This document shows positions 30,935-42,313 of a DNA stretch of 64,000 bases, one piece after another. This stretch comes from Streptomyces globisporus (GTDB taxonomy: Bacteria; Actinomycetota; Actinomycetes; Streptomycetales; Streptomycetaceae), in contig BMTG01000004.1 in NCBI GenBank assembly GCA_014649555.1, forward strand, positions 186,001-250,000, read 5' to 3'. Every line of letters starts with the position of its first letter. Positions within the stretch are counted from its first letter, which is position 1. Both the position numbers and the translations under genes were made by a program. The notes beneath the pieces were generated by a model that saw only the letters and a program-made list of their open reading frames with translations, searched no databases and was not told the origin of the DNA.

Positions 30935-31384
30935 CGGCTCTCCCGTCGTCGTCGTGGCATTTGCGGTGCCGAGGGACGACGTTGGCCCTCTGCGAAATTT
31001 CGTGCAGGTTACATGATGGGGCGCTTCTCAAGAAGCGGAAGGCTTGTTCCAACATACGGACACCGTGGTGACCGGAAGTGACTGGGTGAACCAGAGGTGA
31101 CCGGCTGACCAGGGGGTGGGTCGCTGTCGGAACGATCGGCGCCCGGGGAGTCGCAGAGAGCAGGCGTCGTTGCCTGCGGTGCCTACGGCTCATGCCCGGC
31201 GGCAAAGGAAACGAAACCACCGAGTAACGGCTACTTATGTGCAGCCATGCATAGGGCCTCATTTTACGACTGTGGAGCCCGTCACGCCCAGTGGGCGGCG
31301 CCAAGACGTACGTCACACGGGTTGCCGGAGCGTTGCGCCGTTCGGGCGACCCGGTTACGCCGTCCGCCGGGCCGCCCGCGGGAG
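30935..31384. promoter_or_regulatory. gltB upstream region (450 bp, no gene)
   Basis: This non-coding stretch holds the gltB promoter and the 3' flank of the VIT1-like gene. On the minus strand GTAAC-N6-GAAAT (30998-31013) resembles the Streptomyces GlnR a-b box gTnAc-N6-GaAAc. On the plus strand GAAAC-N6-GTAAC (31213-31228) is a second partial match. A small perfect hairpin CGCTTC-TCAA-GAAGCG lies at 31022-31037. I find no convincing small ORF. Confidence 0.5.
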
Positions 31385-32116
31385 TCACCCGACGGCGACG
31401 CCGAACAGGGTGCCGAGCCCGTACGTCATCGCGGCCGCCGCACCGCCGAGGGCGAGCTGGCGCAGTCCGCTGAACCACCAGCTGCGGGCCGTCACCCGGG
31501 CCACGACCGCGCCGCAGGCGAAGAGGCCGATGAGAGCGAGCAGCACGGCGGGCCACAGGGCGCTCGCGCCGAGGAGGTAGGGCAGGACGGGCAGCAGGGC
31601 GCCCAGCGCGAACGCGCCGAACGACGAGACGGCGGCGACCAGCGGCGAGGGCAGGTCGCCCGGGTCGATGCCCAGCTCCTCACGGGCATGGATCTCCAGC
31701 GCCTGTTCCGGGTCGCGCGACAGCTGCCGGGCGACCTCGCGGGCCAGCGGGGCGTCCACACCCCGGGACTCGTAGAGCGCGGCCAGCTCGGCCATCTCGT
31801 CCTTGGGGTGCTTACGGAGTTCGCGCCGCTCGACGTCCAGCTCGGCCTCGACCAGTTCGCGCTGGGAGGCGACGGAGGTGTATTCACCGGCCGCCATGGA
31901 GAACGCCCCGGCGGCCAGACCCGCGAGCCCGGTGATCACTATGGTCTGCTGGGAGACCGCCCCGCCGGCGACGCCGGTCATCAGGGCGAGGTTGGAGACC
32001 AGGCCGTCCATCGCACCGAAGACGGCGGGACGCAGCCAGCCACCGTTGACATCCCGGTGGGTGTGGTTGTCCCGGTGCGCCTCGTGCAGAACGGCGTCCG
32101 TCTCGATGATGGCCAC
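31385..32116 (-). CDS. VIT1/CCC1-family iron/manganese transporter
   Basis: A 243-residue membrane protein of the vacuolar iron transporter family. It has the conserved GAMDGLVSNLALMTGVAGG segment, then AGAFSMAAGEYTSVASQRELVEAEL in which the metal-binding Met/Glu helix starts. A cytoplasmic Glu-rich loop (DVERRELRKHPKDEMAELAA) follows, and three C-terminal membrane segments close the protein. It probably exports Fe2+ or Mn2+. The start is GTG at 32116 after GGGGAGAAG. It is divergent from the ARH operon. Confidence 0.9.
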   Translation of the reverse strand: MAIIETDAVLHEAHRDNHTHRDVNGGWLRPAVFGAMDGLVSNLALMTGVAGGAVSQQTIVITGLAGLAAGAFSMAAGEYTSVASQRELVEAELDVERRELRKHPKDEMAELAALYESRGVDAPLAREVARQLSRDPEQALEIHAREELGIDPGDLPSPLVAAVSSFGAFALGALLPVLPYLLGASALWPAVLLALIGLFACGAVVARVTARSWWFSGLRQLALGGAAAAMTYGLGTLFGVAVG

Positions 32117-32388
32117 GACTCGCTTCTCCCCTGCTCAGTACAACTTGCGACAAAGTCCAAAGTACGCCGTCCGGGCGGTCGCCGCCAGCAAGGCAAGGCT
32201 GCCCTGCACCCCCTCTGACCTGCGAAGAAAGGGAAGCCTCAGCTTCCAGGCCCGTCATCCGCCTGGCCCCTTTCCCGGCGATTTCCGCCTCCCTTCGCGC
32301 CCCACGTGGGACAGATGCGGACAGGGCCCGGAAACGGACCCGGTCCGACTCGGGCTCAGACCCGGTGGACGAGCGGAAGGGCGACGCG
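32117..32388. promoter_or_regulatory. Divergent promoter region, VIT1-like gene / ARH operon
   Basis: A 272-base gap. A short hairpin GGAAGC-CTCA-GCTTCC lies at 32232-32247. It must contain the promoter of the seven-gene ARH-ribokinase operon, but I see no clear hexamers or known operator. Confidence 0.4.
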
Positions 32389-33477
32389 ATGAACACGGCC
32401 ATCGGCCATGACCGGGCCAGGGGCGCACTGCTGGGACTGGCGGTCGGGGACGCGCTCGGCGCCCCGGCGGAGAACCTGCGGCCCTCCGAGATCCGCCGCC
32501 GCTGGGGGCGGATCGAGGGGTTCGTGAGCGACGACCCGGCGGGCACCGACGACACGGAGTACGCGATCTTCTCCGGGCTGCTGCTGGCCCGGTACGGCTC
32601 CGCGCTCGACGTCACCCATGTGGAGCGGGCCTGGCACCACTGGATCGCGGACCTCGACGAGGGCCCGTTCCGGGGGGCCGGGTTCAGCGAGCGCGGCACG
32701 CTGGAGAACCTGCGCCGGGGCCTGGCCGCACCGATCTCGGCCCAGCACCGGCACGCCTGGAGCGACGGGCTCGCGATGCGGGCGGCGCCCTTCGGGGTGT
32801 TCGCGGCGGGCCGCCCCGCCGAGGCGGCCCGGCTGGTCGCGGTGGACGGCCGGGTCAGCCACGAGGGCGAGGGGATCTACGGGGGCCAGGCGGTGGCGGC
32901 CGGGGTGGCGGCGGCCATGGTCGGCTCGGGCCTCGCCTCGGTGATCGCGGCCGCGCTCTCGGTGGTCCCGATGGACTCCTGGACGGCCCGCTCGCTGCGC
33001 CGGGCGGTGGCGGCGGCCCAGCGCCCCTACCCCGACCGCCTCACGATGGAACGTGCGGTGCGCTCGGCGGTGGTGATCGCCGGCTACCCGTGGACGGACC
33101 TCGCGCCGGAGGCGGTGGGCCTGGCCTTCGGGGCGTTCACGGCGGCACGCGGGGACTTCCGTACGGCGGTGCTGACCGCTGTCAACATGGGCCGGGACGC
33201 CGACACGACGGCGGCCGTGGCGGGGTCGCTGGCCGGGGCGCTGCACGGGGAGAGCGCCATCCCGCCGGACTGGGCGAACGCGATCGGCCCGGTCCGGGGC
33301 AGCTGCCTGCCCTCGATGCGCGGCTACCACGTCCTGGACATCGCGGAGCTCCTGACGCCGGACGATCCGGAGGCGGGGGCGACGCGGGAGCGGGGCGGCG
33401 GCCGCGAACCTTCGGCCGTACGGGACATGGCGTCGGTGGCGGCGTCCTTCGAGCCGGGGCGGGAGGAGCGGCGATGA
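32389..33477 (+). CDS. ADP-ribosylglycohydrolase family protein, paralogue A
   Basis: A 362-residue all-helical ARH/DraG-fold hydrolase; characterised members remove ADP-ribose from proteins or cleave related N- or O-ribosyl bonds. Both halves of the two-metal site are intact: Thr53-Asp54-Asp55 (GTDDTEYAIF) and Asp270/Asp272 (MGRDADTTAAVAGSLAGAL). ARGALLGLAVGDALGAPAE is the typical start. I chose the ATG at 32389 because GGAAGG is eight bases upstream; a GTG at 32365 is possible. It is the first gene of the operon, and its TGA overlaps the next ATG. The natural substrate is unknown. Confidence 0.88.
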   Translation: MNTAIGHDRARGALLGLAVGDALGAPAENLRPSEIRRRWGRIEGFVSDDPAGTDDTEYAIFSGLLLARYGSALDVTHVERAWHHWIADLDEGPFRGAGFSERGTLENLRRGLAAPISAQHRHAWSDGLAMRAAPFGVFAAGRPAEAARLVAVDGRVSHEGEGIYGGQAVAAGVAAAMVGSGLASVIAAALSVVPMDSWTARSLRRAVAAAQRPYPDRLTMERAVRSAVVIAGYPWTDLAPEAVGLAFGAFTAARGDFRTAVLTAVNMGRDADTTAAVAGSLAGALHGESAIPPDWANAIGPVRGSCLPSMRGYHVLDIAELLTPDDPEAGATRERGGGREPSAVRDMASVAASFEPGREERR

Positions 33478-34769
33478 CGACGGGCAAGACGGCAACGGGG
33501 CCCGACAGGAGCCCAGGGACCACCCGGCCGGGTACGGAAGCGCCCCACTCCCCCGCCCCCTCCCGGCGCGCCCGGATCGAAGGGCTGTTGCTCGGGCTGG
33601 CCGCCGGGGACGCCGCGGGGTGGCCCGCCGCGCGGCATCGGGCGGCCCGGATGCCCGAGTGGACCCGGCGGCTCACCCGGGAGCTGGACACCTTCGCCGA
33701 GCAGAACGCCACCACCACGCTCCCCGTGCCCATCGCCCTCAACCAGCCGCCCGAGCCGCTGCGGCTCGGACCGTCCGACGACGCCGAGTGGGCCGCTTTC
33801 GCCGCACGTACGGTGCTGGCGGCGGCCGCCGACGAGGCGGACGGGCTCTCGTCCGGCCGCCGGATGCGGGACGCCGTCGACCGGGCCTGGAACGCGCTCG
33901 CCGCCACCGTCGCCGCCGCCAGCGCCCGGGCCCCCGAGGTCGAGGCGGCCGTCCTTCCGCTGCGGGCCCGGATCTCGGTACGGGCCGGGCTCGGCAACCT
34001 GGCCGCCGGGCTGCGGCCTCCCGCCACCGGGCACGACAACCCGCACTACTTCGACGACGCCGCCTGCGTCCGGGCGGCCGTGCTCGCCGTGGTCCATCCG
34101 GGCGATCCGGCGGAGGCGGCGGCCCTCGCGGAGTTCGACGCCCGGTACACGCAGGACGGTGACGGGGTGCACGGCGCCCGGGCCGTGGCCGCCGCGATCG
34201 CCGTGGCGCTGGCCGGGGCGGACGTCGACACCGTGGTCGACGCCGCCCTCGACCGGCTCCCCGACGGCACCGAGATCGCCCGCAACGCCGTGCACGCGGT
34301 CCGTCTGGCCCGGGAGTTCGCGGACGAGCCGGCCGGGGCGTTCGCCCTGGTCCCGGTCCTGGAGCACCAGATCGTCGACCACGTCTACAGCTACGGGATC
34401 GCGGCGGCCGAGACCGTCCCCGTCGCGCTCGCCCTCACCACCGCCGCCCGGGGCGAGATCGCCCAGGCGATCCCGGCCGCCGCCTGCCTCTCCCGGGTCG
34501 CCGACTCCGCGCCCGCCCTGGCCGGGGCGCTGACCGGGGCGATCGGCTCGATCACCGCCGTACCGGCGGGCTGGCGCGAGGCCTGCCGGACGCTCGCGGG
34601 CTGTGCGCTGCCCCGGCTCGCGGGCACCGACCTGATCGAACTCGCCGGGCTGCTGGCAGCCACGGAACCAGCCCTCCCGGGTGGACAATTCCGACATGAC
34701 GCCCACAACGGCCACAGCTCCGGCCGCCTCGACCCCGCAGACCTCCCCCTCCACCCCCGGACTCGATGA
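33474..34769 (+). CDS. ADP-ribosylglycohydrolase family protein, paralogue B (degenerate metal site)
   Basis: A 431-residue second ARH paralogue. RIEGLLLGLAAGDAAGWPAARH marks the domain start near residue 34 after a Pro/Thr-rich tail. The first metal motif is Ser101-Asp102-Asp103 (PSDDAEWAAF). In the second, where active members have DxD, it reads Arg341-Val342-Ala343-Asp344, so the first Asp is lost. Activity may be weak or absent, or it may be a regulatory partner. ATGA overlap links it to paralogue A. Its 3' end overlaps the start of paralogue C by about 75 bases in another frame. Confidence 0.8.
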   Translation: MTTGKTATGPDRSPGTTRPGTEAPHSPAPSRRARIEGLLLGLAAGDAAGWPAARHRAARMPEWTRRLTRELDTFAEQNATTTLPVPIALNQPPEPLRLGPSDDAEWAAFAARTVLAAAADEADGLSSGRRMRDAVDRAWNALAATVAAASARAPEVEAAVLPLRARISVRAGLGNLAAGLRPPATGHDNPHYFDDAACVRAAVLAVVHPGDPAEAAALAEFDARYTQDGDGVHGARAVAAAIAVALAGADVDTVVDAALDRLPDGTEIARNAVHAVRLAREFADEPAGAFALVPVLEHQIVDHVYSYGIAAAETVPVALALTTAARGEIAQAIPAAACLSRVADSAPALAGALTGAIGSITAVPAGWREACRTLAGCALPRLAGTDLIELAGLLAATEPALPGGQFRHDAHNGHSSGRLDPADLPLHPRTR

Positions 34770-35889
34770 CCGCTTCACCCGGGCCCTCGTCGGCGCGGCC
34801 GTAGGCGACGCGCTCGGCGGCCCGGTCGAGGGCTGGACCCCCGAGCAGATCGCCGAGCGCCACGGCGGCCGGGTGACCGGGATCGTCGGCCCCTGGTACG
34901 GCGAGGACTGGCGCACCGCCCGCCCCATCGCGCCGTACCACAAGGGTGACGGGCACGTCACCGACGACACCTTGATGACCCACGCCCTGATCCGGGTCTA
35001 CGAGAAGGTCCGCGACCACCTCGACGCGTACGCCGTCGCCGACCATCTGGTCCCGGATCTGCTCTCGCCCCGCTGGATCCCGGAGCTGGAGGCCGAGGCG
35101 CTCCCCCTCCAGCGGATCTTCCTGGCGGAGAAGTGGATCGTGGCCCGGCTGCACTACGGGCACATCGACCCGCGCGAAGCCGGGGCGGGCAACATCGTCA
35201 ACTGCGGGGCGGCGATGTACATGGCCCCGGTCGGCCTGGTCAACGCCGGGCACCCGGAGGCCGCGTACGCCGAGGCGCTGGAGGTCGCGGCCCCGCACCA
35301 GTCGTCGTACGGGCGGGAGGCCGCCGGGGTGTTCGCGGCCGCCGTCGCCGCCGCCTGCCACCCGGACGCGACCCCCGACGCGGTGATCGACGCCGCCCTC
35401 GCGCTCGCCAAGGACGGCACCCGCTCCGCGATCGAGGCGGTCTGCGAAGTCGCCGTGCGCCACGACGACTTCGAGTCCGCGCTCGCCCCACTGCGGGCGG
35501 CCGTGGAACCCTTCGACACGGTCGGCCCCGACTACCGCTCCCCCGCGCTCGGCGCCCGCCGCCCCTCCCGGCTGCACGCCATCGAGGAACTGCCCGTCGC
35601 CCTGGGGATGTTGCTGGTCGGGGGCGGTGACTACCGGCGTACGGTGCTGGGTTCGGTGAACTACGGCCGCGACTGCGACTCCATCGCCACCATGAGCGGG
35701 GCGATCGTGGGCGCGCTGGGCGGTGAGATCCCGGCCGACTGGGCGGAGACGGTCTCGGAGGCGAGCCGCCTGGATCTGCACACCCCGGCCCGGGCGCTGG
35801 CACAGGTGGCCCGGGAGGTCTTCGCCCGCGACCTGGAGCGGCGCGCGGCCCACGAGGAGGCCTTCACCGCGTTGGCCGGTGAGCGGTGA
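34696..35889 (+). CDS. ADP-ribosylglycohydrolase family protein, paralogue C
   Basis: A 397-residue ARH paralogue with a complete metal site: Thr89-Asp90-Asp91 (HVTDDTLMTHAL) and Asp326/Asp328 (NYGRDCDSIATMSGAIVGAL). The start FTRALVGAAVGDALGGPVEGW is typical. GNIVNCGAAMYMAPVGLVNAGHP is a further conserved ARH-like stretch. I take the ATG at 34696; a GTG at 34681 is also in frame. It starts inside paralogue B, and its stop overlaps the GTG of paralogue D. The substrate is unknown. Confidence 0.87.
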   Translation: MTPTTATAPAASTPQTSPSTPGLDDRFTRALVGAAVGDALGGPVEGWTPEQIAERHGGRVTGIVGPWYGEDWRTARPIAPYHKGDGHVTDDTLMTHALIRVYEKVRDHLDAYAVADHLVPDLLSPRWIPELEAEALPLQRIFLAEKWIVARLHYGHIDPREAGAGNIVNCGAAMYMAPVGLVNAGHPEAAYAEALEVAAPHQSSYGREAAGVFAAAVAAACHPDATPDAVIDAALALAKDGTRSAIEAVCEVAVRHDDFESALAPLRAAVEPFDTVGPDYRSPALGARRPSRLHAIEELPVALGMLLVGGGDYRRTVLGSVNYGRDCDSIATMSGAIVGALGGEIPADWAETVSEASRLDLHTPARALAQVAREVFARDLERRAAHEEAFTALAGER

Positions 35890-37316
35890 ACGCCGCCCCG
35901 CCCCGGGATCCGCGCGTCCGCCTCACCTGGGTGCAGCCCGAGGATCTGGTCGGGCACGAGCTGCGGCAGGCCGCGCAGGACGGCCGGGACGCCCGGGAGA
36001 TCGAGGAGCGGTGGTACGCGGCCGGGGGCTCCCCCGCCCCGGGCCGCGCGGGCGCGTGCGAGCCGCCCGCATCACCCCGGCTGCGGGCGCTGGCCGGTGA
36101 GCTGCTGGATGAACTCGCCACGCAGGATCCGCCGTTGGCCGCCGATGAGCCGACCGAGCTGGACGCGATCGTGGCCGCCTGCCCGCACTGGCCGGGGCCG
36201 CCCACGTCCGCGCTCGCCGTCGGAGACGGTACGCCCGCCGCCGGCCGGACGCCCGTCGTCACCCCCTCCCGACTGCACGCCGCCTGGCTCGGCCGGGCGG
36301 CGGGCTGCCTGCTCGGCAAGCCGGTGGAGAAGCTGCCGCTGACCGGTATCCGCGTGCTCGCCCGGGCCACCGGCAACTGGCCCCTCACCACCTGGTTCAC
36401 CGCGCGCGGCGTGCCCGCCGAGCTGCTCTCCGCCCACCCCTGGAACCGCCGCTCGGCCCCCACCTCGCTCGCCGAGAACATCGACGGCATGCCTGAGGAC
36501 GACGACCTCAACTACCCGCTGCTCACCCTGCTGTTGCTCCAGCGGCACGGGCGCACCTTCACCACCGCCGACCTGGCCCGGCTCTGGCTGGACGAGCTCC
36601 CGGCCGGGCGCACCTTCACCGCCGAGCGCATCGCGTACGGCAATCTCCTGGCGGGCGTCGAACCCCCCGAAACCGCCCGCCGCCGCAACCCGTTCCGGGA
36701 GTGGATCGGCGCGCAGATCCGGGCCGACGTGCACGGCTGGACCCACCCCGGCGACCCGGCCGGGGCCGCCGCCCAGGCGCACCGGGACGCGGTCCTCACC
36801 CATACCGGCAACGGGGTGTACGGCGCGATGTTCACCGCCGCCGCGCTCGCCGTCGCGGCCGGGGGCGAGAGCGATGTGCACGGCTGCCTGGCCGCCGGCC
36901 TGCGGGTGGTGCCGCCGCACTCGCGGTACGCCCGCGCGGTCCGGCTCGGCATCGAAACAGCGCGTACGGAAGGGGAGTTCGACACCGTCGTGGACCGGCT
37001 GCACGCTGTCTACGCCGACACCCACCACTGGGTGCACGTGCTGCCCAACGCCGCGCTGCTCGCCGCCGCCCTCACCCACGCCGACGGCGACTTCACCCGG
37101 TCGATCGGCAACGCGGTCTCCGGCGGCTGGGACACCGACTCCAACGGAGCCACCGCGGGCTCCCTCGCCGGACTCCTCGCAGGCACCCCGGACGCCCTGC
37201 CGCACCACTGGACGACCCCGCTGAAGAACCGGCTCGCCACCTCCGTACCCGGCTTCGACGGGGCCGGCTTCGACACCCTCGCCGCACTGACCCACCAGGA
37301 GGCTCTGCGCCCATGA
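35886..37316 (+). CDS. ADP-ribosylglycohydrolase family protein, paralogue D (extended N-terminus)
   Basis: A 476-residue protein with an additional ~130-residue N-terminal segment (VQPEDLVGHELRQAAQDG) that I cannot assign. The ARH domain follows from HAAWLGRAAGCLLGKPVEK. The first metal motif is Glu204-Asp-Asp-Asp (MPEDDDLNYPLL), a variant of TDD. The second is intact at Asp416/Asp418 (GGWDTDSNGATAGSLAGLLAG). The GTG start overlaps the paralogue C stop as GTGA. The ribokinase-like gene follows with an ATGA overlap. A sub-family with a different ligand is likely. Confidence 0.85.
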   Translation: MNAAPPRDPRVRLTWVQPEDLVGHELRQAAQDGRDAREIEERWYAAGGSPAPGRAGACEPPASPRLRALAGELLDELATQDPPLAADEPTELDAIVAACPHWPGPPTSALAVGDGTPAAGRTPVVTPSRLHAAWLGRAAGCLLGKPVEKLPLTGIRVLARATGNWPLTTWFTARGVPAELLSAHPWNRRSAPTSLAENIDGMPEDDDLNYPLLTLLLLQRHGRTFTTADLARLWLDELPAGRTFTAERIAYGNLLAGVEPPETARRRNPFREWIGAQIRADVHGWTHPGDPAGAAAQAHRDAVLTHTGNGVYGAMFTAAALAVAAGGESDVHGCLAAGLRVVPPHSRYARAVRLGIETARTEGEFDTVVDRLHAVYADTHHWVHVLPNAALLAAALTHADGDFTRSIGNAVSGGWDTDSNGATAGSLAGLLAGTPDALPHHWTTPLKNRLATSVPGFDGAGFDTLAALTHQEALRP

Positions 37317-38203
37317 CCCGCATCGCGGTGCTCGGCAGCACCAATATGGACCTCGTCGCCTACACGGCCCGCGCTCCCGGACGCGGTGAGACCGTCACCG
37401 GAAGGGAGTTCCGGACGATCCCCGGCGGCAAGGGCGCCAACCAGGCCGTCGCTGCCGCCCGCGCGGGCGGCGAGGTGATGATGATCGGCGCGGTCGGCGA
37501 CGACGTGTACGGGACACGGCTGCGCGAGGGCCTCGAACACGCAGGCGTCGACACCGACCTCCTGCACACCGCCGAGGGCCCCAGCGGCACCGCGCACATC
37601 GTCGTCGACGACACCGGATCCAACGCGATCGTGGTGGTCCCGGGGGCGAACGGCGTCGTCACCACGCTCGGCCCGGGGGAGATCGCGGCGATCGCTGAGT
37701 CCGAGATCCTCCTCATGCAGCTCGAACTCCCCCTGTCCGCCGTCGTCGAGGGCGCCCGCGCGGCCCGGGCGCAGGGTGTGCGGACCATCCTCACCCCGGC
37801 TCCCGTGCAGCCTCTGCACGACGAACTCCTGGACCACATCGACCTGTTGGTGCCCAACGAGCACGAGGCCGCCGAGCTGTCCGGGCAGGACGAACCGCAC
37901 GCCGCCGCCCAGATCCTGCTGCGCCGGGTGCCCGAGGTCATCGTCACGCTCGGCGCGAAGGGCTGCCTGTACGCCGCCCGGGGCGGGGAGCCGGTGCTCT
38001 TCGCGGCCCCTTCGGTGACCGCCGTCGACACCACCGGGGCCGGGGACACCTTCGTCGGGACGCTGGCCGTGGCGCTCGGCGAGCGGCGCCCGGTGGCCGA
38101 GGCCGTGGCGTTCGCGTCCGCCGCCGCCGCGCTCTGCGTCCAGAAACCCGGCGCGTCCACATCCATGCCCTACCGCAGCGAGATCGAGGCCGAGGCCGTA
38201 TGA
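37313..38203 (+). CDS. Ribokinase-like PfkB-family sugar kinase
   Basis: A 296-residue kinase. N-terminal VLGSTNMDLVAYTARAPGRGET, then IPGGKGANQAVAAARAG (sugar site) and the C-terminal VDTTGAGDTFVGTLAVAL with the catalytic Asp and anion hole are all ribokinase-type. It probably phosphorylates ribose or a related sugar freed by the upstream glycohydrolases, which is an inference from operon position. AGGAGG precedes the ATG. Both its ends overlap neighbouring genes by four bases. Confidence 0.9.
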   Translation: MTRIAVLGSTNMDLVAYTARAPGRGETVTGREFRTIPGGKGANQAVAAARAGGEVMMIGAVGDDVYGTRLREGLEHAGVDTDLLHTAEGPSGTAHIVVDDTGSNAIVVVPGANGVVTTLGPGEIAAIAESEILLMQLELPLSAVVEGARAARAQGVRTILTPAPVQPLHDELLDHIDLLVPNEHEAAELSGQDEPHAAAQILLRRVPEVIVTLGAKGCLYAARGGEPVLFAAPSVTAVDTTGAGDTFVGTLAVALGERRPVAEAVAFASAAAALCVQKPGASTSMPYRSEIEAEAV

Positions 38204-39396
38204 GCACGACAGCGGGACCCCTGACCGGGCTGAAGGTCATCGACCTGGCCACCCTCTTCGCCGGCCCCCTCGCCGCCACCATGCTCGGGGACTTCGGCGC
38301 CGATGTGATCAAGGTCGAGCACCCCCGTAAGCCGGACCCCTCGCGCGGGCACGGGCCCGCCAAGGACGGGGTCGGCCTGTGGTGGAAGCTGCTCGGCCGC
38401 AACAAGCGCACCCTGACCCTGGATCTGTCGGCGCCCGGTGGCCGGGACGTGCTGCTCCAGCTGGCCGCCGAGACCGACGTCATCATCGAGAACTTCCGGC
38501 CCGGGACGCTGGAGCGCTGGGGACTCGGACCCGAGGAGCTGCACGCCGTCAACCAGCGCCTCGTGCTGGCCCGGGTCACCGGCTTCGGCCAGTCGGGACC
38601 GTACGCGCACCGCCCCGGCTTCGGGACGCTGGCCGAGGCGATGAGCGGGTTCGCGGCGATCACCGGGGAGCCGGACGGGCCGCCGACGCTGCCGCCGTTC
38701 GGTCTTGCGGACTCCATCGCGGCGCTGGCGACGGCGTACGCGGTGATGGCGGCGCTCGCCGGGCGCGAGAAGACCGGCGAGGGGCAGGTGGTGGACCTGG
38801 CGATCATCGAGCCGATCCTGACCGTGCTGGGCCCGCAGCCGCTCTGGTACGACCAGCTCGGCTACGTCCAGCCGCGCACCGGCAACCGCTCCCGCAACAA
38901 CGCCCCGCGCAACACCTACCGCACCGCCGACGGCCACTGGGTCGCGGTCTCGACCTCCGCCCAGTCCGTCGCGGAGCGCGTGATGCGCCTGGTGGGCCGG
39001 CCCGACCTGATCGACGAGCCCTGGTTCGGTTCGGGCACCACGCGGGCCGACCACACCGAGGAACTGGACGGGGCGGTCGGCCACTGGATCTCCCGGCACA
39101 GCCGCGAGGAGGTGCTGAACGGCTTCGAGAAGGCGGAGGCGGCGGTCGCGCCGATCCATGATGTACGGGAGGTGATGGAGGACCCGCAGTACCGGGCGCT
39201 GGGCACGATCGCCGAGGTCGACGACCCGGAGCTGGGGCCGCTGCGGATGCAGAACGTCCTCTTCCGGCTCTCGGAGACCCCCGGCGGCATCCGGTGGGCG
39301 GGCCGCCCGCACGGTGCGGACACCGAGGAGATCCTGGCCGGGCTCGGCCTCTCGGAGACCCGGATCGCGGCGCTGCGGGACCAGGGGGCGCTGTGA
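38200..39396 (+). CDS. CaiB/BaiF family (class III) CoA-transferase
   Basis: A 398-residue family III CoA-transferase that moves CoA between carboxylic acids. KVIDLATLFAGPLAATMLGDFGADVIKVE and FRPGTLERWGLG are typical. The catalytic aspartate is Asp171 (PFGLADSIAALATAYAVM). The donor and acceptor are unknown. It is coupled to the ribokinase by ATGA and to the CitE-like gene by GTGA. CoA-transferase plus CitE-like lyase is the arrangement used for C5 acids such as itaconate, but no hydratase is seen here. Confidence 0.92.
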   Translation: MSTTAGPLTGLKVIDLATLFAGPLAATMLGDFGADVIKVEHPRKPDPSRGHGPAKDGVGLWWKLLGRNKRTLTLDLSAPGGRDVLLQLAAETDVIIENFRPGTLERWGLGPEELHAVNQRLVLARVTGFGQSGPYAHRPGFGTLAEAMSGFAAITGEPDGPPTLPPFGLADSIAALATAYAVMAALAGREKTGEGQVVDLAIIEPILTVLGPQPLWYDQLGYVQPRTGNRSRNNAPRNTYRTADGHWVAVSTSAQSVAERVMRLVGRPDLIDEPWFGSGTTRADHTEELDGAVGHWISRHSREEVLNGFEKAEAAVAPIHDVREVMEDPQYRALGTIAEVDDPELGPLRMQNVLFRLSETPGGIRWAGRPHGADTEEILAGLGLSETRIAALRDQGAL

Positions 39397-40259
39397 CCGG
39401 CTGCGACGCCCCCTTCCCTCCGCTGCCGGAGGACCCGCAGGACGCCCCCGGGCGGCCGCCGCTGACCTGGCTGTACGTGCCCGGGGACCGGCCGGAGGTG
39501 GTGGCCAAGGCGCTGGGCTCCGGGGCGGACGTGGTGATCGTCGACCTGGAGGACGCCGTCGCCCCGGAACGTAAGGAGTACGCGCGCTCCGCCACCGCCG
39601 AACTCCTCGGCGACCAGGTGACCGCAGCCCCCGACGCCGTACCGGTCCATGTCCGGGTGCACGGCGAGGACGACATCCGGGCGCTGGCGGGGCTGCCGGG
39701 TCTGGCGGCGTTCCGGCTGCCGAAGATCACCCATGCGGTCTCGGTGCACCATGTGGCGGCCGTGGCCCCGGGCGTCCCGCTGTATCCGCTGCTGGAGTCG
39801 GCGCTCGCGATCGAGCACGCGTACTCGATCGCCTCGGCGCATCACGCGGTCCGGGGGATCGCCCTGGGCGAGGCGGATCTCCGGGCCGATCTGGGCGTAC
39901 GGGAGGACGCCGGTCTTGACTGGCCGCGCAGCCGGGTCGTGGTGGCGGCCCGGGCGGCGGCGCTGCCTCCGCCGGTGCAGTCGGTGTTCCCGGACGTCCG
40001 GGACCTGGACGGGCTGTGGGCGTCCTGCGTACGAGGGCGGGGGCTCGGGCTGCTGGGGCGGGCGGCGATCCATCCGCGCCAGCTGGAGGTGATCGAGCGG
40101 GCGTTCCGGCCGACGGCCGAGGAGATCGAGGCTGCCGAGCAGATCGTCGCGGCCTCGGCGGTGGAGGCGGGGGCGCTGGCGCTGCCGGACGGGCGGTTCG
40201 TGGACGCGGCGGTGGTGGCGTCCGCCCGCCGTACGATCGCGCTCGCCGGGCGGGCCTGA
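39393..40259 (+). CDS. HpcH/HpaI aldolase / citrate lyase beta-type (CitE-like) lyase
   Basis: A 288-residue TIM-barrel lyase of the CitE/malyl-CoA lyase group. TWLYVPGDRPEVVAKAL, the metal-binding DVVIVDLEDAVAPERKEYAR, and the C-terminal GRAAIHPRQLEVIERAF (CoA end) are characteristic. It should cleave a beta-hydroxyacyl-CoA to an acyl-CoA and an oxo-acid. It is the last gene of the ARH-ribokinase operon, started by a GTG overlapping the CoA-transferase stop. A perfect hairpin spans its stop codon. Confidence 0.88.
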   Translation: MTGCDAPFPPLPEDPQDAPGRPPLTWLYVPGDRPEVVAKALGSGADVVIVDLEDAVAPERKEYARSATAELLGDQVTAAPDAVPVHVRVHGEDDIRALAGLPGLAAFRLPKITHAVSVHHVAAVAPGVPLYPLLESALAIEHAYSIASAHHAVRGIALGEADLRADLGVREDAGLDWPRSRVVVAARAAALPPPVQSVFPDVRDLDGLWASCVRGRGLGLLGRAAIHPRQLEVIERAFRPTAEEIEAAEQIVAASAVEAGALALPDGRFVDAAVVASARRTIALAGRA

Positions 40260-40283
40260 GACTGCGGGCCCGCCCGGCGAGCG
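40240..40283. terminator. 17-bp perfect hairpin over the end of the CitE-like gene
   Basis: CGCTCGCCGGGCGGGCC (40240-40256) pairs perfectly with 40267-40283 around a ten-base loop containing the TGA. It probably terminates the ARH operon and, from the other side, lgt. Confidence 0.82.
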
Positions 40284-40323
40284 GGAGGTGTACGGGGTGC
40301 GCCCGGGGAGGGCGCGGGGGGGG

Positions 40324-41304
40324 TCAGCCCTTCTCGGCCGCCGCTTCGGTGCTCTCGGCGGTGCGGCCCGTGCCCGGCTCGTCCTTGCTGAGCGGGTCCT
40401 TCTTCTCGTCGGCGTCCTGCTCGGCGTCCTTCGCGTCGGCGTCCGCCTTCGCGGAGCCGTCCTTGTCGGAGTCCTTCCCGGGGGTGGTGTCCCGGTCGGG
40501 CTCGACGATCTCCTCGCGGCCCGGACGCAGCCTGGCGGAGACCACGATGTAGACGACGGCGAGGAGGAAGACGATGATCGCGGTCCACACGTTCAGGCGG
40601 AGGCCCAGGATGTGGTGGGCCTCGTCGACGCGCATGTACTCGATCCAGCCGCGGCCGGCGCAGTAGGCCGCGACGTACAGCGCGAACGCCCGTCCGTGGC
40701 CGAGCGAGAAACGGCGGTCGGCCCAGATGACCAGCAGCGCCACGCCGATGCACCACAGCGACTCGTACAGGAAGGTCGGGTGGTACGTCCCGGCGACCCG
40801 GTTCGCGCCCTCGCTGATCTCCACCGCCCAGGGGAGGTCGGTGGGCTTGCCGTACAGCTCCTGGTTGAACCAGTTGCCCCAGCGGCCGATGGCCTGCGCG
40901 AAGGCGATGCCCGGGGCCAGCGCGTCGGCCCAGGCGGGCAGCGGGATGCCCCGGCGGCGGCAGCCGATCCACGCGCCGACCGCGCCGAACGCGATGGCGC
41001 CCCAGATACCGAGGCCGCCCTCCCAGATCTTGAAGGCGTCGACCCAGTTCTCACCCTCGCTGAAGTACAGCTGGTAGTCGGTGATCACGTGGTAGAGCCG
41101 CCCGCCGACGAGGCCGAAGGGCACCGCCCAGACGGCGATGTCGGCCACCGTGCCGGCTTTGCCGCCCCGGGCGATCCAGCGCTTGTTGCCGAACCAGACG
41201 GCGACGAAGACACCGATGATGATGCAGAACGCGTAGCCGCGGAGCGGAATCGGGCCGAGCTCGATCACGCCGGTCGACGGACTGGGAATGGAGGCAAGAT
41301 TCAT
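40324..41304 (-). CDS. lgt: Prolipoprotein diacylglyceryl transferase
   Basis: This membrane enzyme transfers a diacylglyceryl group to the lipobox cysteine of prolipoproteins. The 326-residue protein has several membrane helices and the Lgt signature FAQAIGRWGNWFNQELYG, with GGRLYHV and YHPTFLYESL also conserved. The last ~70 residues are a hydrophilic Asp/Lys/Glu-rich tail (DSDKDGSAKADADAKDAEQD), longer than in most Lgt proteins. The ATG at 41304 lacks a strong Shine-Dalgarno. It lies downstream of the trp genes and a DsbA-like gene on the same strand. Confidence 0.95.
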   Translation of the reverse strand: MNLASIPSPSTGVIELGPIPLRGYAFCIIIGVFVAVWFGNKRWIARGGKAGTVADIAVWAVPFGLVGGRLYHVITDYQLYFSEGENWVDAFKIWEGGLGIWGAIAFGAVGAWIGCRRRGIPLPAWADALAPGIAFAQAIGRWGNWFNQELYGKPTDLPWAVEISEGANRVAGTYHPTFLYESLWCIGVALLVIWADRRFSLGHGRAFALYVAAYCAGRGWIEYMRVDEAHHILGLRLNVWTAIIVFLLAVVYIVVSARLRPGREEIVEPDRDTTPGKDSDKDGSAKADADAKDAEQDADEKKDPLSKDEPGTGRTAESTEAAAEKG

Positions 41305-41413
41305 GGCGAGGTCGACGCTACCTTGCCGGGCGGTGGGTACGGCAAGCCAACCGGCAACGTCTGGGTAACGGGGACCGCGTCACGGGCGGGCAGGACACCC
41401 CCGGGGGCTCCGG

Positions 41414-42313
41414 TCAGGAACCGGCGGCGGACGAGGGCGCGGCCGGGGTGGAGGCGCTGCCGTCCGGCGCGGACGGGGCATCGGACCCGTCGGCCGGACC
41501 GGACGGGGAGGCGCTGCCCGGCTTCTTGCCCTTGTTGGCCTCGGCGACCCACTTCTTCAGGTTCTCCGGGGAGATCTGCTCGTCGCCCTTGCCCGGGAAG
41601 ACGGACTCCCCGTTGAGCAGCACCGTCGGCGTGCCCTGGAAGCCGCCCTCGCGGAACGCCGTGTCGGACTTCTTCACCCAGCTGTCATGCTCGCCGTCCT
41701 CCACACAGCTGCGGAAGCCCGGCGTGTCGAGCCCCTCGACCTCCCCGGCCAGCTCGATCAGCCGGCTGTTCTTGGCGAAGGCGTCGTCCGGCTCGGGAGG
41801 CTGGTTGCTGAAGAGGACGTCGTGGTACGGGGCGAACTTGCCGACGTCCTGGGCGCAGGCGGCGGCGTTGGCGGCGCGCAGCGATCCGGAGCCGCCGAGA
41901 TTGCCGTCGATGATGGTGGCCAGGTGATACTCCACCCGGATCTGGCCGTCGTCGGCCAGTTCGGTAATCGTGTCCCGGAAGGCCGTCTCGAACTGGGCGC
42001 AGACCGGGCAGCGGAAGTCCTCCCAGATCGTGAGGGTGGACGGGGCGTCGGCCGCGCCGACCGGCAGGGTCAGGGCGGCCTCGCCGATCGCGCCGGACGG
42101 GGCGACGGCCGGGCCGGAGGCGGAGTCGCCGCCGTCGTCCTTGCCCGCGTTGGCCGCGATCAGGCCGACGACGGCGGCCAGGCCGAGCACCCCGACCACC
42201 GCCGAGGCGACGATCAGCGTCCGGCGGCGCTTCTCGCGCCCCTTCTCCCGCTCGCGCTGCTGGGCCAGGCGCTCGCGCGCGCTTCTGTTTCCCTCAGGGA
42301 TCTTGTCGCTCAC
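41414..42313 (-). CDS. Membrane-anchored DsbA/thioredoxin-like protein
   Basis: A 299-residue extracytoplasmic disulfide oxidoreductase-like protein. A basic N-terminus (KGREKRRRT) leads into one membrane anchor (TLIVASAVVGVLGLAAVVGL), then a DsbA-fold domain with CxxC in WEDFRCPVCAQFETAF and the cis-Pro loop GFQGTPTVLLNG. It ends in a Pro/Ser/Ala-rich tail. I chose the GTG at 42313 because MSDKIPEGNRSARERL is the natural start; no clear Shine-Dalgarno is seen. It lies between trpA and lgt, with hairpins before it. Confidence 0.86.
   Translation of the reverse strand: MSDKIPEGNRSARERLAQQREREKGREKRRRTLIVASAVVGVLGLAAVVGLIAANAGKDDGGDSASGPAVAPSGAIGEAALTLPVGAADAPSTLTIWEDFRCPVCAQFETAFRDTITELADDGQIRVEYHLATIIDGNLGGSGSLRAANAAACAQDVGKFAPYHDVLFSNQPPEPDDAFAKNSRLIELAGEVEGLDTPGFRSCVEDGEHDSWVKKSDTAFREGGFQGTPTVLLNGESVFPGKGDEQISPENLKKWVAEANKGKKPGSASPSGPADGSDAPSAPDGSASTPAAPSSAAGS

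Follow-up and report, generated by a model that had tools for sequence, protein, structure and literature searches.

Organization of the locus

A 64,000-nucleotide stretch of the Streptomyces globisporus genome (contig BMTG01000004.1, positions 186,001–250,000; hereafter referred to as the window) contains a predicted operon of seven genes, encoding four proteins of the ADP-ribosylglycohydrolase fold (labeled ARH1 to ARH4), a PfkB-family ribokinase (RK), a CaiB/BaiF class III coenzyme A (CoA)-transferase (CaiB) and a CitE-like CoA-ester lyase (CitE). All seven open reading frames (ORFs) are intact, and lie on the + strand between the genes VIT and lgt. ARH1 spans positions 32389–33477 of the window, ARH2 33474–34769, ARH3 34696–35889 (a GTG at 34681 is another possible start), ARH4 35886–37316, RK 37313–38203, CaiB 38200–39396 and CitE 39393–40259. 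Five junctions are 4-nt ATGA or GTGA overlaps (at 33474, 35886, 37313, 38200 and 39393), and the overlap between ARH2 and ARH3 is larger, at 74 nt, or 89 nt if the GTG is used. The ORFs therefore bear out the coupled same-strand arrangement described in the original prediction, which had been made from the DNA letters only.

The four ARHs all score above the PF03747 cut-off of 26.2 bits (ARH1, 208.4; ARH2, 111.9; ARH3, 176.9; ARH4, 163.3), with the match in ARH4 confined to residues 132–434, and ∼130 additional residues at its N-terminus. RK matches the PfkB family (240 bits), CaiB matches PF02515 (CoA_transf_3, 406 bits), and CitE exceeds the PF03328 (HpcH_HpaI) family cut-off (88.9 vs 25 bits). 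The protein families first proposed are thus confirmed by Pfam, and for RK also by TIGR02152, whose cut-off it exceeds (317 vs 299.65 bits). Compared to four near relatives (three for RK), the ratio of nonsynonymous to synonymous substitution rates (dN/dS) is 0.04–0.28 over the seven genes, indicating purifying selection.

Distribution within Streptomyces

I fetched 20 Streptomyces regions, and 19 of these carry the set in the same order between VIT and lgt, two of them without RK. The 20th region (L037, from genome G012), near a chromosome end, retains a relic of ARH4 and RK only, and both VIT and lgt are absent from the fetched region. A larger sample was drawn from a public scan, as the best 80 of at least 590 ARH3 relatives; all are from Streptomyces, and were selected by ARH3. 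The 64 loci longer than 20 kb were counted, and the 16 of 20 kb or less were left out. All seven genes are found in 47 of the 64, and ARH1, ARH2, ARH3, CaiB and CitE in 63. RK is absent in 16, where the ARH4 and CaiB matches are separated by 9–110 nt. An alternative merging of matches gave 46, 63 and 16, respectively.

Streptomyces genomes devoid of an ARH4 or ARH2 orthologue were also inspected, and VIT is present in 19 of the 20 asked. Among the 18 VIT regions of sufficient length, all seven genes are missing between VIT and lgt in 16, while one has RK only, and one ARH3 only. Since 63 of 64 loci keep ARH1–3 with CaiB and CitE, and 16 of 18 operon-negative regions lack all seven genes, gain and loss in Streptomyces affect almost the entire block at once, with the exception of RK, which is the dispensable member. 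A second ribokinase (44–47% identity) is encoded in 11 of the 12 Streptomyces genomes searched; for the twelfth, G074, the top match elsewhere in the genome is weaker. Three Streptomyces loci (L265, L266 and L267) possess partly deleted copies of the operon at the usual VIT–lgt position, in which decay is in progress.

The locus outside Streptomyces

Profiles of ARH2 and ARH3 were each searched over 345 genomes of the class, and clear orthologues span six families. ARH3 is the most widely found of the four ARHs, with matches at E ≤ 1e-25 in 55 of the 345 genomes (25 of the 33 from the window's genus, and 19, 7, 2, 1 and 1 in the families labeled f91, f89, f97, f8 and f87). A cluster with these genes is also found in a Nonomuraea record. 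Over 396 sampled genomes of the phylum, ARH3 matches at E ≤ 1e-75 are restricted to the window's genus, with weaker ones elsewhere.

From these profile matches I chose 23 non-Streptomyces loci for comparison, three of which (L108, L121 and L257) are truncated where the contig stops. The usual gene order is LacI, permease, permease, solute-binding protein, ARH1, ARH2, ARH3, ARH4, RK, in some cases an additional gene labeled c9, CaiB and CitE. The regulator and each of the three transporter genes are present in 22 of the 23 relatives, and the remaining one starts at a contig end. ARH3 is found in all 23, ARH4 in 22, ARH1 and ARH2 in 21 each, CaiB in 19, RK and CitE in 18 each, and c9 in 10. RK is thus as frequent as CitE outside Streptomyces, but dispensable within the genus. 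The order is altered in L121, where CaiB–CitE are placed before LacI. Two small genomes retain much of the locus: one of 1.3 Mb has LacI, the transporter, ARH3, ARH1, ARH2, CaiB and CitE, and one of 1.8 Mb has LacI, the transporter, ARH3, ARH4, c9, CaiB and CitE. Given the order shared in Streptomyces and in other families, the co-occurrence of this gene set is far beyond chance, and the comparison shows that in the relatives a predicted sugar importer, a LacI-type regulator and these putative enzymes form one directional gene cluster.

A tblastn search with ARH3 further identified 22 plasmid records, 20 of which are alphaproteobacterial, at ∼40–44% identity. I mapped 13 of these 20 loci. LacI, two permeases, the binding protein, ARH3 and a UgpC-type ATPase are present in all 13; an ARH4-like gene is found in 11, CaiB in seven and CitE in six, and six have neither CaiB nor CitE. 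RK is intact in or beside the cluster in two, and a fragment in one. The pairing of CaiB–CitE with ARH3 and a sugar importer on these plasmids means that the association recurs in a second phylum. In the three plasmid ARH4-like proteins looked at, the C-terminal half has no ARH motifs, and it shows a weak laminin-G match in one. The 689–699 amino acid ARH of the rhizobial plasmids could be read as an ARH1–ARH2 fusion, but this was rejected, as an ARH4-like first half is followed by a second half that lacks ARH motifs.

The c9 protein (L103:12548–14461 (+) and its relatives, in the 10 clusters mentioned above) is ∼640 amino acids long, and possesses a C-terminal FGE-like domain, the only part for which a ten-sequence profile matched the Protein Data Bank (PDB). 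For the N-terminal ∼470 residues, that profile had no significant PDB match, and none of three such N-terminal pieces searched had a Pfam family over cut-off. By eye, invariant Asp and Glu residues give c9 the look of a glycoside hydrolase. A further PF03747 protein (651 amino acids, 47.5 bits) is encoded at L106:13017–14969 (−), adjoining genes for a ribose/arabinose-type ATP-binding cassette (ABC) transporter, in a region that also holds a second LacI-ABC-ARH cluster. Its start resembles a signal peptide by eye, and it is possibly a secreted ARH involved in sugar use.

Transporter, regulator and upstream region

LacI, the permeases (MalFG/Ugp-like) and the sugar-binding protein were identified on one representative each, and the importer is CUT1/MalEFG-like. 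Among NCBIfam models, the LacI representative scores best with RbsR, under its cut-off. The window's locus has no LacI gene, importer or operator, and a LacI orthologue elsewhere in the genome was not searched for. On another contig of the same genome, however, there is an orthologue of the binding protein (53% identity, E 3e-144; next match E 2e-14), together with two orthologous permeases. This binding-protein orthologue is found in 30 of 39 operon-positive vs 5 of 20 operon-negative Streptomyces (Fisher p 2e-4, uncorrected for kinship and with two query proteins used). In two Streptomyces loci (L301 and L302), LacI, the transporter and all seven genes occur together, and in a third (L272) only the transporter occupies the VIT–lgt interval. 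The simplest history is that of an 11-gene locus that was split later.

Around the split Streptomyces transporter (for example L293:8301–13532 (−)), a glycosyltransferase-like gene, as judged by eye, lies a few genes from the binding protein in seven of eight loci. In these loci, no counterpart of the relatives' LacI gene was seen next to the transporter, and the neighbours (glycosyltransferase-like and protease-like, by eye) give no clue as to the substrate.

An operator-like pattern, KAAACSNTTTM, was drawn from nine of 12 tested actinobacterial loci (of 24 with LacI), leaving L120, L121 and L256 as independent cases, and searched with at most one mismatch. All 12 have sites between 155 bp ahead of the called LacI start and 15 bp past it, and 10 have two or more. 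Of the 40 matches that these loci contain on the LacI strand, 23 are located in the 4,320 bp around LacI, of 199,796 bp in total. The pattern is absent on both strands from the 64-kb window and from 71 Streptomyces upstream regions, and it is also absent from four alphaproteobacterial loci. The lack of a match in the window implies that its operon is not under the LacI-type control seen in the relatives. The relatives thus combine importer, LacI gene and operator-like sites, and the window's locus does not. In their two MalFG/Ugp-like permeases, solute-binding protein, sugar kinase and single direction, the relatives further resemble LacI-regulated CUT1 sugar operons. They differ from these in that ARH-fold proteins occupy the usual place of glycoside hydrolases, and in the CaiB–CitE pair.

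The intergenic region between VIT (−) and ARH1 (+), positions 32117–32388, presumably houses the promoter of the operon. Partly conserved blocks are seen when the 71 Streptomyces upstream regions (that of the window included) are aligned. The palindrome CCCACGTGGG, 5′ of ARH1, was ruled out as an operator, since it is found in only one of the 71. A riboswitch was likewise ruled out, as an Rfam search of 31000–41500 returned nothing over the gathering score. A near-palindrome, AAGGCAAGGCTGCCCT, is located at 32190–32205, 5′ of the VIT-family gene on the − strand, within a block conserved over the 71 regions; it resembles the box of an actinobacterial iron regulator. The operon is flanked by VIT and gltB/gltD on one side, and by lgt, a DsbA-like gene, trpA, trpB and trpC on the other. 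Elsewhere in the genome there are three more PF03747 matches.

Features of the ARH proteins

ARH1, ARH3 and ARH4 are predicted hydrolases in which both metal motifs are present (TDDT and GRDADT in ARH1, TDDT and GRDCDS in ARH3, EDDD and GWDTDS in ARH4). In ARH2 the second motif, GxDxDT, is replaced by SRVADS. These features are well conserved in the Streptomyces orthologues: in ARH1, TDDT is found in 84/84 and GRDADT in 83/84; in ARH3, TDDT in 83/84 and GRDCDS in 84/84; and in ARH4, the first motif is EDDD or ADDD, with G[WL]DTDS as the second in 84/84. For ARH2, SRVADS is found in 82/84 (the remaining two were not read), and outside Streptomyces none of the 20 orthologues read, of 21, has the GxDxD[TS] form. 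Residues V342, A343, D344 and S345 of ARH2 are invariant among 27 aligned sequences.

In a tree of 45 sequences (midpoint-rooted, with long branches flagged), each ARH position forms one group, with support from 98/94 to 100/100; eight ungrouped rows were left out of these values. ARH2 is the sister of ARH1 (support 97/86), on a long branch. The two co-occur in all 21 non-Streptomyces loci that have either. The top match of the ARH2 AlphaFold model (mean predicted local distance difference test score, pLDDT, of 75) is ARH3 in the PDB entry 7akr (Foldseek E 2.4e-6, TM-scores 0.50/0.62), and its dN/dS is 0.22–0.25, again indicative of purifying selection. Because ARH2 lacks the second metal motif and yet remains under purifying selection, always with its sister, these features suggest that ARH1–ARH2 is an active/inactive pair, in which ARH2 is the probable inactive partner and perhaps no enzyme. 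The proposal of four ARH enzymes would therefore hold for ARH1, ARH3 and ARH4, but possibly not for ARH2.

ARH4 has no PDB match by sequence search; its AlphaFold model (mean pLDDT 83) matches DraG (2woc, Foldseek E 7.6e-6, TM-scores 0.46/0.72). No ARH protein exceeds any substrate-specific NCBIfam cut-off: ARH1 reaches 80.7 bits for the DraG equivalog TIGR02662 (cut-off 337) and 58.3 bits for the Tri1 equivalog NF041672 (cut-off 490), ARH3 scores lower for both, and ARH2 and ARH4 have no match. The operon's ARHs therefore share with the DraG, ARH1 and ARH3 ADP-ribosylhydrolases the fold and, in three of them, the metal motifs, with ARH2 alike by fold only. They differ from these in the missed DraG and Tri1 cut-offs, in the motif lost from ARH2, in the presence of four old paralogues in one operon, and in the sugar importer of the relatives.

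Features of RK, CaiB and CitE

While RK exceeds the TIGR02152 cut-off, it falls under that of the stricter PRK11142 (259.6 vs 341 bits). No substrate-specific equivalog cut-off is reached by CaiB, whose top NCBIfam model is succinate-glutarate CoA-transferase, at 245 bits far under the cut-off of 750. Its dN/dS is 0.04–0.15 over four comparisons, and is the lowest of the operon in three of these. For CitE, the top NCBIfam model is RipC_Ccl (141.6 bits vs a cut-off of 375), the citE model scores 110.7 bits (vs 443), and the closest PDB entries are 9nzb and 8khl, both acyl-CoA lyase beta chains. The resemblance to the succinate-glutarate CoA-transferase and RipC families suggests a hydroxy-di- or tricarboxylic acid as the substrate of the CoA branch. 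The two enzyme types would fit CoA activation of a dicarboxylic acid followed by C–C cleavage, as in the itaconate/citramalate-type pathways (RipC, Ccl). Unlike these, the operon has no hydratase gene and includes sugar-side genes, and both proteins score under the equivalog cut-offs.

A proposed catabolic pathway

The ARH and CoA genes are kept and lost together in Streptomyces, and elsewhere they accompany LacI and an ABC importer of the sugar type. A catabolic pathway therefore suggests itself as the interpretation. I propose, with a probability of about 0.55, that the operon is the enzyme half of a catabolic system, under LacI-type regulation in the relatives, in which a ribosyl conjugate is cleaved and the released acid is processed via CoA. 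That the system serves catabolism of an imported compound is very likely, cleavage of ribosyl bonds by the ARHs is probable, and there is an even chance that the CoA branch acts on the released acid. Because these parts are not independent, the probability of the whole is as given. The outline of a catabolic pathway in the original prediction thus stands, with co-retention and the regulator and importer of the relatives in its support, but the seven genes are not the whole unit, since the relatives add a regulator and a three-gene transporter.

The compound imported in this pathway would be a pentofuranoside, and the likeliest candidate is a hydroxy-di- or tricarboxylic acid conjugated to a ribofuranosyl group. 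ARH3, ARH4 and the ARH1–ARH2 pair would cut its ribosyl bonds by two-metal ARH chemistry, each with its own preference for linkage or chain length, with ARH1 as the catalytic member and ARH2 as a partner deficient in the metal site. RK would convert ribose to ribose 5-phosphate, and another ribokinase may serve where that of the operon is absent. The freed acid would receive CoA through CaiB, with succinyl-CoA as a possible donor, and CitE would then split the resulting acyl-CoA into a 2-oxo acid and either acetyl-CoA or a homologue of it, for use in central metabolism.

Several points weigh against this proposal. The enzyme activities are predicted from family membership, and the substrate is deduced from them; that PF03747 proteins act on plain ribosides is something I infer. 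The identity of the sugar as ribose comes solely from the kinase, which is often absent. The window's locus itself has no regulator or operator. The transporter orthologue is missing in 9 of the 39 operon-positive Streptomyces, where an internal substrate or a different importer may supply the enzymes, and it is present in 5 of the 20 operon-negative ones. Four of the 23 relatives lack CaiB (L108 among them, cut by the contig end) and five lack CitE, and since 6 of the 13 alphaproteobacterial loci lack both, the CoA branch may have a function of its own.

Alternative explanations

From their gene numbers, SCO2028 and SCO2030 of S. coelicolor are presumed to be orthologues of ARHs of the window. 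SCO2034 is presumably lgt, which would leave SCO2032–2033 for CaiB and CitE, with no ribokinase there. If the ARHs instead erased endogenous ADP-ribosylation of protein, nucleic acid or a small molecule, the kinase and CoA genes would use the fragments. This agrees with the PF03747 membership of all four, and with two papers in which SCO2028–2031 (PMC9411070) or SCO2028–2030 (PMC5087735) are listed as uncharacterised DraG/ARH homologues, the number of ARHs in Streptomyces being taken in the latter as a sign of lively ADP-ribosylation. A third paper, however, reports that purified SCO2028 and SCO2030 have no activity on U-α-ADP-ribose (PMC13036486). With the DraG and Tri1 cut-offs missed, and no ADP-ribosyltransferase or macrodomain gene identified in the clusters of the relatives (where not every neighbour was scanned), this explanation is decidedly improbable. 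The LacI regulator and sugar importer of the relatives point away from repair of ADP-ribosylation and towards the import and breakdown of a sugar conjugate. The initial suggestion that ribose or ADP-ribose is stripped from a modified molecule is thereby narrowed: the sugar importer and the inactivity of SCO2028 and SCO2030 make ADP-ribose unlikely, and ribose would remain the candidate.

CUT1/MalEFG-like importers are typically for glycosides and oligosaccharides, which speaks against an imported modified nucleoside, whose base would be removed by the ARHs and whose ribose would be taken by RK, with CaiB and CitE handling an acidic side chain or being incidental. Base-degrading genes were not identified either, among those cluster genes that were scanned. 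The RbsR-like score of the LacI representative would fit a nucleoside, as would E. coli yegTUV, which joins an ARH-family protein to a putative PfkB-type sugar kinase and a nucleoside-type symporter under a dedicated repressor, yegW (GgaR), and to which no function is assigned (PMC10819704). That system resembles the present one in placing an ARH beside a kinase and an importer, but has one ARH, a GntR-type regulator, and neither CoA-transferase nor lyase. Overall, I consider a nucleoside substrate unlikely.

Characterised ARH enzymes cleave ribosyl bonds, and this, together with a kinase that exceeds the ribokinase equivalog cut-off and is present in 18 of the 23 relatives, makes it rather doubtful that the sugar is another pentofuranose or a ketofuranose, with the ribokinase-like kinase as a late recruit. 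The absence of RK from 16 of the 64 Streptomyces loci and from the clusters of the two small genomes speaks for such a scenario, and the additional C-terminal half of the rhizobial ARH4-like protein and the FGE-like c9 of 10 relatives hint at a broader carbohydrate. A ribokinase-like gene is nonetheless found in or beside 2 of the 13 alphaproteobacterial clusters. Finally, CaiB and CitE could degrade an unrelated dicarboxylate, for example of the citramalate or itaconate type, and merely be co-transcribed with the ARH genes. The top model of CitE is indeed an itaconate-pathway lyase, under its cut-off, and the pair is missing beside the otherwise complete L112 and L236, as well as from the six plasmid loci noted above. 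This is quite unlikely when set against the retention of both genes with ARH1–3 in 63 of 64 ARH3-selected Streptomyces loci, in a 1.3-Mb genome and on alphaproteobacterial plasmids of different gene content, and against the low dN/dS of CaiB.

Implications

The original prediction knew of no described pathway with such a gene set, and in the open-access library searched, no listed title or abstract presents the locus as a pathway. I tentatively suggest, at somewhat less than even odds, that a large branch of the ARH superfamily consists of metal-dependent nutrient pentofuranosidases, and that an ARH1–ARH2 heteromer, ARH3 and ARH4 dismantle an imported ribofuranosyl hydroxy-acid, whose acid CaiB and CitE convert to acetyl-CoA and a 2-oxo acid. 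ARH1–ARH2 would then exemplify the retention of an apparently inactive paralogue beside its active sister across several actinobacterial families. ARH proteins are otherwise regarded as erasers of ADP-ribosylation. Four ARHs in a conserved locus, with an importer and LacI in the relatives, redirect the search from NAD-derived tags to nutrients, and the question can now be tested, as the ligand of the binding-protein orthologue should be readable by mass spectrometry. If the proposal is correct, such a pathway would probably account for half of the S. coelicolor ARHs, of which eight are listed, and it would represent a catabolic route for an unrecognised class of natural products across Streptomyces, other actinobacteria (two with small genomes included) and rhizobia.

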